A stretch of 64,000 bases of DNA from assembly GCF_026798195.1 (NCBI RefSeq), contig NZ_JAPQEZ010000001.1:370901-434900 (forward strand), in the 5' to 3' direction. Positions within the stretch are counted from its first letter, which is position 1, and each line of letters begins with the position of its first letter. Source of the stretch: Lentilactobacillus senioris (lineage in GTDB: Bacteria > Bacillota > Bacilli > Lactobacillales > Lactobacillaceae). This document shows, in pieces, positions 42,782-60,337 of this stretch. The position numbers were made by a program, and so were the translations under genes. Below the pieces are notes generated by a model. The model did no database searches. It was given only the letters and a program-made list of their open reading frames with translations, and was not told where the DNA came from.

Positions 42782-43402
42782 TTGAATAAAAAAATTGGGG
42801 CCATTATGACCTGCTTTGTACTGATTGTAATTGTGGTGAGCGGGGCGTTTTACGTTCGAAGTAATCGAATCGCTAGTTCTCAAAGTTATTACGTCAGTGA
42901 AAGCAGTACGACCGTAGTGGATAAAACTAATCAAGAACACGATAGTTTTATTAGTAAAGTTGCTCGTCCGGCAATGAAATTATATGAAAAGAATCAACAA
43001 GTTTTACCTAGTATTGTGGTGGCTCAGGCTATTTTAGAGTCGAGCTGGGGGGATTCAGATTTATACCGCAATGCTAATAATCCGTTTGGAATTATGGGTA
43101 GCTACCATGGTCAGTCAATTCGTTATGATACAGCGGAGGTGATTTCTGGTAAGCGAATTACGGTGAAGGCCGCCTTTCGGAAGTACCCTAGCTTATTAGC
43201 TGCCATTAATGATCATAATCGCTTACTAGCTCAGCAGTTTATTAATCAAAGTAACGTGTTATCATACCGTAAAGTTGCTAAATTACTGCAACAAAATGGG
43301 TACGCAACCGATCCACACTATGCGAAGAAATTGATCCAAATTATTCGTAAGTATAATTTGAGTAAATATGACTTAGCCGCTATTAACGGTAATAGTAATT
43401 AA
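42782..43402 (+). CDS. Membrane-anchored N-acetylglucosaminidase (GH73)
   Basis: A 206-residue protein: N-terminal hydrophobic segment (residues 5-25), a Ser/Thr-rich linker, then a GH73 domain. The catalytic Glu is in AQAILESSWGDS near residue 82, followed by NNPFGIMG and a C-terminal YATDPHYAKKLI motif. It cleaves glycan chains between GlcNAc and MurNAc. The start is TTG with AGGAG ten bases upstream. Being 14 bases behind the amidase gene, it is probably in its operon. Confidence 0.85.
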   Translation: MNKKIGAIMTCFVLIVIVVSGAFYVRSNRIASSQSYYVSESSTTVVDKTNQEHDSFISKVARPAMKLYEKNQQVLPSIVVAQAILESSWGDSDLYRNANNPFGIMGSYHGQSIRYDTAEVISGKRITVKAAFRKYPSLLAAINDHNRLLAQQFINQSNVLSYRKVAKLLQQNGYATDPHYAKKLIQIIRKYNLSKYDLAAINGNSN

Positions 43403-50635: not shown

Positions 50636-50686
50636 TGTGGTTTTTCTCCATAACTGAGTTCAATCGGCTAACCGGTTTTAGAGCTC

Positions 50687-50698
50687 TGTACTAGTACA
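50687..50698. promoter_or_regulatory. 12-bp perfect palindrome upstream of the small membrane protein gene
   Basis: TGTACTAGTACA lies about 50 bp upstream of the gene at 50635 on the minus strand and could be an operator. No regulator gene is adjacent. Confidence 0.25.
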
Positions 50699-50727: not shown

Positions 50728-50902
50728 AAAAAAAGGAGACAAGCCGCTTGAGGCCGTCTCACTTTACTATTCTAGGGGAAGAATATATGAAAAGTAGTAA
50801 ATCTATCTCATAAATTAAGGGGGAATTTAATTTATTAGAATGTAGGGGAAGAAGAGATTGCCAAATAATTTCGGAAAATTATCTGAGTCCTTCTTATCTA
50901 CA
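50728..50902 (-). ncRNA. Candidate small RNA with three C-rich anti-Shine-Dalgarno motifs
   Basis: On the minus strand a -10 TATATT (50909-50914) with a weak -35 TTGTTT (50931-50936) is followed, without any convincing open frame, by three C-rich motifs: TTCTTCCCCTA (50843-50853), ATTCCCCC in the loop of a 9-bp hairpin (50810-50835), and TTCTTCCCCTA again (50773-50783), with TCCCCT in the loop of a 6-bp hairpin (50768-50785). A strong terminator follows: GAGACGGCC pairs with GGCTTGTCTC (50736-50760), then seven Ts. This is the design of sRNAs such as RsaE/RoxS that block AGGGG-type ribosome sites. No known family is claimed. Confidence 0.5.
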
Positions 50903-50914
50903 ACTAATAATATA

Positions 50915-51193
50915 CATGATTTATTTTATGAAACAAGGATCAAAATGTGATTTTTTTGTGATGCTAATTATTGTAGTTTAAACTCATTTTAATGTAGTTG
51001 ATTTCAAACGACGAAAAAGACGCAATCCGTTGGTATAAAAGTGATTGCGATAGTTTATCGTATACATAATTTTCTAGTAATTTCAATGATTGACGCCCTT
51101 TTTAATACTGTGAAAAAAGTATGAAAGCGAGCTTGATATTAACGGCTCGAGAGATTAAAGTTATTAATAAATAATAACCTAAATGGAGGCGGC
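50915..51193. other. Non-coding stretch before the esterase gene
   Basis: Apart from the candidate sRNA promoter, I see no gene here. It is A/T-rich with no long open frame on either strand. It presumably holds the promoter of the esterase gene, but no convincing -35/-10 pair stood out. Confidence 0.4.
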
Positions 51194-60186: not shown

Positions 60187-60203
60187 TTAAATACTAAGAA
60201 AAA

Positions 60204-60290
60204 ACACTGGGGGTGCCATTGTGGCTGAGATGGAATTTTCCAATCCCTTGGAACCTGTAAGTTAATACTTGCGTAGGGAATGTGTGCTGT
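60204..60290 (+). promoter_or_regulatory. TPP (THI-box) riboswitch aptamer
   Basis: Conserved core elements are in order: ACTGGGGGTGCC, GGCTGAGATG, CCCTTGGAACCTG and GTTAATACTTGCGTAGGGAA. It senses thiamine pyrophosphate and controls thiMDE. The 3' strand ACTTGCG (60267-60273) is complementary to CGCAAGT (60312-60318) in the following terminator loop, giving the antiterminator pairing. Confidence 0.95.
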
Positions 60291-60295
60291 TTTAC

Positions 60296-60337
60296 TGAGC
60301 CGTTACCCGCAAGTAATTAGGTAGCGGCTTTTTTGCT
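60296..60337 (+). terminator. Attenuator terminator of the thi operon
   Basis: GCCGTTACC and GGTAGCGGC pair, followed by TTTTTT. It forms when TPP is bound. Confidence 0.88.

Follow-up and report, generated by a model that had tools for sequence, protein, structure and literature searches.

To our knowledge, few base-pairing small RNAs (sRNAs) have been described for lactobacilli. Among C-rich sRNAs, RsaE/RoxS and FsrA are encoded by single-copy genes, and two other families, the csRNAs and LhrC, occur in several copies. The csRNAs of streptococci form sets of two to six paralogues per species, depend on CiaR and carry an anti-Shine-Dalgarno (anti-SD) stretch (PMC4438229). According to the same source, their promoters contain two response-regulator-bound hexamers 5 nt apart (TTTAAG-N5-TTTAAG). 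The LhrC1-5 RNAs of Listeria (RF00616) are likewise multicopy and depend on LisRK; according to PMC4132741, each has three redundant CU-rich (UCCC) sites, located in a loop, a single-stranded stretch and the terminator loop, that pair with the ribosome site. For RoxS, PMC8216469 describes C-rich regions that pair with target mRNAs, at a ribosome site. From lactic acid bacteria, a long noncoding RNA of L. salivarius (PMC5643018) and 6S RNA (PMC8414754) are on record.

The locus considered here lies within a 64,000-nt stretch (the window) of a Lentilactobacillus senioris genome of 1.8 Mb, whose ManA shares 97% identity with that of L. senioris DSM 24302. In the window, the initial annotation had proposed an undescribed minus-strand sRNA. 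It had reported a -10 element, two identical 11-mers, a third C-run in the loop of a 9-bp hairpin, one of the 11-mers partly in the loop of a 6-bp hairpin and a U-tailed terminator, and all of these are found where it had placed them (Table 1). The 5' end of the RNA is UUGUAGAU, the same as in units from other genera. In the predicted fold the first TTCTTCCCCTA is mostly paired, with CUUCUU and CUACA in stems and CCC looped out. The minus-strand fold has a z-score of -3.85, with none of 200 shuffled sequences equally stable, and the plus-strand fold one of -2.60, with 3 of 200 equally stable; across nine units, folding z-scores ranged from -4.9 to -8.2. A simple consensus scan of the window listed neither the sRNA promoter pair nor its terminator, which we attribute to the weak -35 element and the bulged stem; it returned eight other promoter-like sites where 4.3 were expected. 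The surroundings contain a 52-aa open reading frame (ORF) downstream on the same strand (50635-50477), which among loci L002-L137 has no counterpart outside the window genome except in G019, and, at about 50675-50692, GTTTTAGAGCTCTGTAC, which we take to resemble the beginning of a type II CRISPR repeat.

Table 1. Features of the sRNA locus in the window.
Feature	Position	Strand	Remarks
Degenerate second box, TTCATA-N5-TTCACA	51100..51125	minus	No -10 at the conserved distance
Response-regulator-type box, ATCACA-N5-ATCACA-N5-ATCC	50937..50962	minus	11-bp repeats; from position counts and distance to the -10
-10 element, TATATT	50914-50909	minus	Read from sequence
sRNA gene, ~175 nt	50728..50905	minus	Start inferred a few nt downstream of the -10
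C-rich motif 1, TTCTTCCCCTA	50853-50843	minus	On the 3' side of the 5' hairpin
Hairpin 2, 9 bp	50835-50810	minus	Loop CCCCC at 50823-50819 (C-rich motif 2); covarying stem
Hairpin 3, 6 bp	50786-50769	minus	C-rich motif 3, the second TTCTTCCCCTA (50783-50773), in and around the loop
Intrinsic terminator and T-tail	50728..50760	minus	Stem GAGAC...GTCTC at 50760-50736; seven T at 50734-50728

A blastn search with the region matched 23 of the 24 Lentilactobacillus genomes, missing G016; in G003 and G018 the best match fell inside an ABC gene and the second match was the sRNA. Many loci consist of two or three consecutive units, each with its own box, -10 element, C-rich RNA and terminator, and three types of unit were distinguished: A (core CUUCCCCUAG), B (UAUCUCCCCCUC) and C (core UUCCCCUCAG). 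Forty-three A and C units were found, and 42 of them were aligned, the second unit of L064 being omitted because its 5' hairpin is deleted; boundaries were set by hand at the starts of the L062 and L068 units and at the end of the L069 unit. Nine type B rows, one of which is a repeat of a type A unit, stand outside the alignment. A covariance model built from the 42 related units of 23 genomes (R1) matched all 24 genomes of the genus one to three times each, with only G016 held out (E = 1.1e-25), as the other 23 matched genomes had supplied training units. Two or three matches were obtained in 20 genomes (in two of these partly on different contigs) and a single match in G000, G019, G011 and G012. 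Plasmids gave no match to three queries.

The neighborhood of the array was compared across 23 loci, those of 22 other genomes and the window. In 22 of them the array begins beside the same 280-aa alpha/beta hydrolase gene (Pfam Abhydrolase_3), which reads away from the sRNA; the G012 locus (L071) lacks this neighbor, and in L062 a 132-aa ORF sits between the two. The flank opposite the hydrolase varies between species. The degenerate second box of the window, which occupies the place of the first array unit of other species, is probably a relic.

Runs of at least four C number three in 27 of the aligned units and four in the remaining 15, whereas shuffled units have 0.22 on average; no G-run of that length occurs in any of the 42. 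The TTCCCCT of the hairpin 3 loop is kept in every one of them, and a C-run in the terminator loop in 40; the window copy and its G019 counterpart have a terminator loop without one. The initial annotation had asked whether the C-runs and terminator are kept in related genomes, and both proved to be conserved. Several species have a further C-rich stretch, TTTTGTCTCTCCCCCAATA, beyond the terminator; it is seen in L025 and L015 and, in L080 and L081, follows the second type A unit.

RNAalifold predicted three helices with 23 pairs from the 42 units, 12 of the 23 pairs being changed on both sides. Pairing was retained in 97.4% of cells, as opposed to 39-47% (at most 47.2%) after sliding the partner by one to three columns, and changes on both sides were counted in 64 cells versus 5-12 after the same sliding, figures that are favored by the derivation of the structure from the same alignment. 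Helix 3 is the terminator; helix 2 is invariant and therefore uninformative on covariation. Over the paired positions, G-U combinations outnumber A-C combinations by 67 cells to 13, and because the G-U cells are pairs only in the minus-strand RNA, this argues that the minus strand is the one under selection. The proposal of an sRNA gene is well supported by conservation, covariation, strand asymmetry, a fixed promoter geometry and tandem copies.

The genus box has the consensus TTCACA-N5-TTCACA-N5-TTC, and its end lies exactly 22 nt ahead of the -10 element in 41 of 43 A and C units, a count in which the distance alone was free, the box being the best upstream match and the -10 the first match to an imposed pattern 17-40 nt further on. 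The two exceptions are L062, whose box reads partly as N, and L068, whose box carries an indel. The window box, built on ATCACA variants, departs from the consensus at four positions and keeps the distance. Across 41 units, position 3 of the first hexamer is always C and its positions 4 and 6 are always A; position 3 of the second hexamer is likewise C in every unit. The C of the third repeat is present in all 41, its two T positions being looser (27 and 37). An A is further kept at position 36 (41/41) and at position 38 (40/41), resembling a fourth A(C/T)A half-site. Response regulators of the OmpR/PhoB family usually bind direct-repeat hexamers at 11-bp spacing.

When six Lentilactobacillus genomes were searched with up to one mismatch, 17 box sites were found, compared with four for the reversed pattern; the window genome has no TTCACA box site at that threshold. 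Eight of the 17 are sRNA units, five adjoin genes for large secreted S-layer-like proteins, and four, three of which were opened, lie elsewhere. The S-layer-like proteins were unmatched in Pfam and are so named from reading their sequences. TTCACA-N5-TTCACA is seen near such genes in L099 and L094 (around 1500-1650), L091, L089 and L086, in varying orientation; in L099 and L094 a hairpin with ACCCCA comes after the box and could be another short RNA. Upstream of six OmpR-family regulator operons no clear box was found, the best site there, ahead of L104, being a reverse-oriented pair with two mismatches. By eye, L104 resembles LisR/ArlR, and its upstream region is without a clear box. L106 looks CiaR-like by eye and received no NCBIfam name above the cut-off among the matches listed; among the best 25 matches per protein, only the first of the six regulators was named above the cut-off, as YycF. 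A separate repeat, TTTACA-N5-TTTACA, stands roughly 80 nt upstream of the pstS start codon of the window genome (L100, near 1331) and is likely a PhoP- or WalR-type site; this pst-operon repeat is related to the sRNA box TTCACA, yet different from it.

The same plan recurs in other genera. Over 397 Lactobacillaceae genomes, R1 matched all 24 of Lentilactobacillus and 7 of the 373 from other genera. The match in one of these seven (G368, L131) is without a box and was taken as false; with this one and G173 set aside, the five genomes that were opened have phased repeats together with C-runs and a terminator, arranged in tandem in G310 and G364. Among these loci, L133 has only two repeats, and L134 has three imperfect repeats and weaker C-runs. 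A second model (R2), built from five units of G310, G364 and G195, matched 36 of the 397 genomes, three of them its training sources, with up to eight matches per genome. By genus these are 25 genomes of g4 (eight matches in G385, five in G310), seven of g9 and two of g35, with one weak match in a single genome each of g22 (E = 5.5e-4) and g26 (E = 9.5e-4). Thirty loci were fetched, three of them from training genomes: perfect TTCA(C/T)A hexamers stand at 0, 11 and 33 in 24, and the box lies exactly 57 nt ahead of the R2 match in 29. Random windows of the same loci reached a box score of at least 16/18 in 17 of 1365 cases, probably neighboring copies. UUGUA(A/G) occurs near the 5' end of 29 of the 30 RNAs, and the window RNA is alike in this respect; of all copies, that of the window may be the nearest to the ancestral form. 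At E = 0.001, R2 matched no Lentilactobacillus genome, so the link between R1 and R2 rests on six genomes that both models match and on the 5' end and promoter plan common to the two sets. In G364 and G310 (L168 and L169) sRNA copies adjoin genes for small secreted proteins, two of which have G-rich ribosome sites (AAGGGGGAA and AAAAGGGGATG) and are possible local targets.

Searches with Rfam 15 (4227 families) over the window and 20 related loci matched only TPP and T-box elements, with no family covering the sRNA, and at E values up to 10 nothing came near a gathering score. The sole Rfam match in the window is a TPP riboswitch at 60199-60297 on the plus strand. In the open-licence literature on sRNAs and boxes of Lactobacillus, Lentilactobacillus and lactic acid bacteria, no such family appeared among the matches listed. 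The description of the sRNA as undescribed therefore stands as far as these two kinds of search reach.

By design, the sRNA resembles the csRNAs and LhrC, and by the features tested it belongs to neither. With the csRNAs it shares paralogous copies, paired hexamers with a 5-nt gap and a predicted anti-SD stretch. Unlike there, the box is TTCACA, NTTAAG-N5-TTTAAG being present in 0 of 43 Lentilactobacillus and 0 of 30 other-genus promoters, the nonamer [A/C]UCCUAAA[A/C] is found in 0 of 42 and 0 of 30 units, and the copies are arranged in tandem. The csRNAs have two stem-loops around 40 unpaired nt, whereas the units here have three or four hairpins with C-runs in their loops. Redundant UCCC sites are shared with LhrC, each unit having one to four and 34 of the 42 at least three. 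The terminator-loop site of LhrC has a parallel in the 40 units with a C-run there and is lacking in the window copy and its G019 counterpart. The C-runs are longer than those of LhrC and lie in hairpins of different sequence, and the RF00616 gathering score was reached by neither the window, the 20 related loci nor the window genome. No RF00616 match above the cut-off was obtained in 398 Bacilli genomes; a single match below it (L137), behind a chaperonin-like gene, is probably due to chance. The parallel with RsaE/RoxS drawn in the initial annotation holds as a loose analogy, the csRNAs and LhrC being nearer in design: RsaE/RoxS and FsrA likewise have C-rich regions suited to pairing with mRNAs, whereas they differ in sequence and promoter, and Rfam gave no match to them here. 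We propose a box-driven, C-rich sRNA family of Lactobacillaceae characterized by TTCA(C/T)A-like repeats with 11-bp spacing and a constant distance to the -10 element; the window copy, with its ATCACA variants, is placed in it.

The initial annotation had further suggested that the C-rich motifs act on ribosome sites, and had pointed to genes of the window with G-rich sites. GGGG lies within 18 nt of the start in 5 of 65 window genes. Duplex energies were calculated over all 65 starts and for 20 shuffled sRNAs, ignoring intramolecular structure, and the mean pairing of the sRNA, -15.9 kcal/mol versus -15.7 for the shuffled sequences, gave no advantage. The strongest duplex of the 65 is that with an MMPL-family transporter gene 9 kb from the sRNA (start about 41569, leader GGGGAGAAG), at -23.3 kcal/mol versus -15.4 (sd 2.3, 20 shuffles). 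Second is Spx, and the three remaining GGGG genes take places 18, 27 and 30; of the genes that had been named, MMPL and Spx come first and second, NlpC/P60 18th and the Lsa-like ABC-F gene 30th. The gene at 42782 exceeds MMPL relative to its own shuffles (-20.1 versus -10.8, sd 2.3), through an A/U stem and not a C-run. Among genes related to MMPL (52-90% identity), those of G019 and G011 are preceded by GGGGAGA and that of G012 is not. On predicted energies, the MMPL-family membrane transporter is the best local candidate target.

Across 22 of the 24 Lentilactobacillus genomes, AGGGGAAG was found before ATG at 147 sites, compared with 99 for the reversed pattern (35 versus 23 in six genomes, 112 versus 76 in the other 16). 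Twenty-four of the 147 sites are the sRNA genes read in antisense, so that 123 remain. When 120 loci among the 147 sites were read, 122 matches were obtained, and in 69 an ORF of 60 aa or more was present; many of these ORFs encode secreted or membrane proteins, in a mixed set that includes in-gene matches and for which no enrichment is claimed. The only clearly recurrent gene was nrdH, which was rejected as a conserved target since AGGGGAAG precedes it in only 9 of 23 genomes, the other 14 having other ribosome sites. Anti-SD action is plausible, but the sRNA has no mean pairing advantage over the 65 starts and no conserved target was found.

Several other readings of the locus were weighed. 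That the plus strand codes for short peptides behind AGGGGA sites, with the minus strand silent, had been raised in the initial annotation, and it could appeal to AGGGGAAGAATATG, antisense in most type A units, and to MNTKVIN or MNIKVIN, encoded in 20 of 43 units. The predicted peptides, however, have 4-32 residues and are unlike between units, the G-U excess points to the minus strand, and box, -10 element and terminator are all oriented the other way, which makes coding hardly credible. Almost as improbable is a cis-acting leader or attenuator of a downstream gene: such an element is suggested in the window by the same-strand 52-aa ORF, but that ORF has only the one counterpart mentioned above, the array persists across species whose downstream genes differ in identity and strand, and the units end in terminators. 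We consider it improbable, to a lesser degree, that the main partner of the sRNA is a protein or a different RNA and not ribosome sites, for instance through sponging or titration of a CU-binding protein. The UUCCCCU loop on a stem invariant in 41 distinct rows is what a protein site would also look like, and the search for a conserved mRNA target found none. Against this, the C-runs occur at three or four separate places on changing stems, which points to plain base pairing, and known Gram-positive C-rich sRNAs use such motifs on ribosome sites (PMC4132741, PMC8216469).

The preferred reading, to which we assign a probability of about 0.7 from comparative sequence data, is that of a multicopy Lactobacillaceae sRNA family driven by a response regulator, whose C-rich loops would pair with G-rich ribosome sites. 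Within it, the gene, its strand, the promoter geometry, the loops and the tandem copies are supported by sequence comparison, and we infer the activation by a regulator and the pairing with ribosome sites. A special case of this reading, in which the regulator is PhoP and the signal phosphate, is doubtful. PhoP boxes of B. subtilis are repeats of TT(A/T/C)ACA, and the repeat before pstS is a near relative of TTCACA-N5-TTCACA; the sRNA boxes, on the other hand, hold C at position 3 of both hexamers in 41 of 41 units (and read TTCA(C/T)A in other genera), and among the few best other box sites opened none precedes a phosphate gene.

In the response-regulator reading, an OmpR/PhoB-family protein would bind the phased hexamers and offset the poor -35 element, so that one signal could switch on all copies together. 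The C-rich loops would then pair with the G-rich ribosome sites of several mRNAs and block their translation, with several copies, and several loops per copy, adding dose and redundancy. It is conceivable, as a tentative extension, that one OmpR-family two-component system acts largely via RNA, its best-matched sites being mostly sRNA-array promoters, and that a kinase signal is turned into a burst of related anti-ribosome-site RNAs, up to eight in number, by which the set of surface proteins is reshaped. With a multicopy family marked by a recognizable box, the sRNA layer of these food and gut bacteria can be tested in dozens of species at once. If the preferred reading is true, it would add a third case, beside the csRNAs and LhrC, of a response regulator working through repeated C-rich sRNAs.
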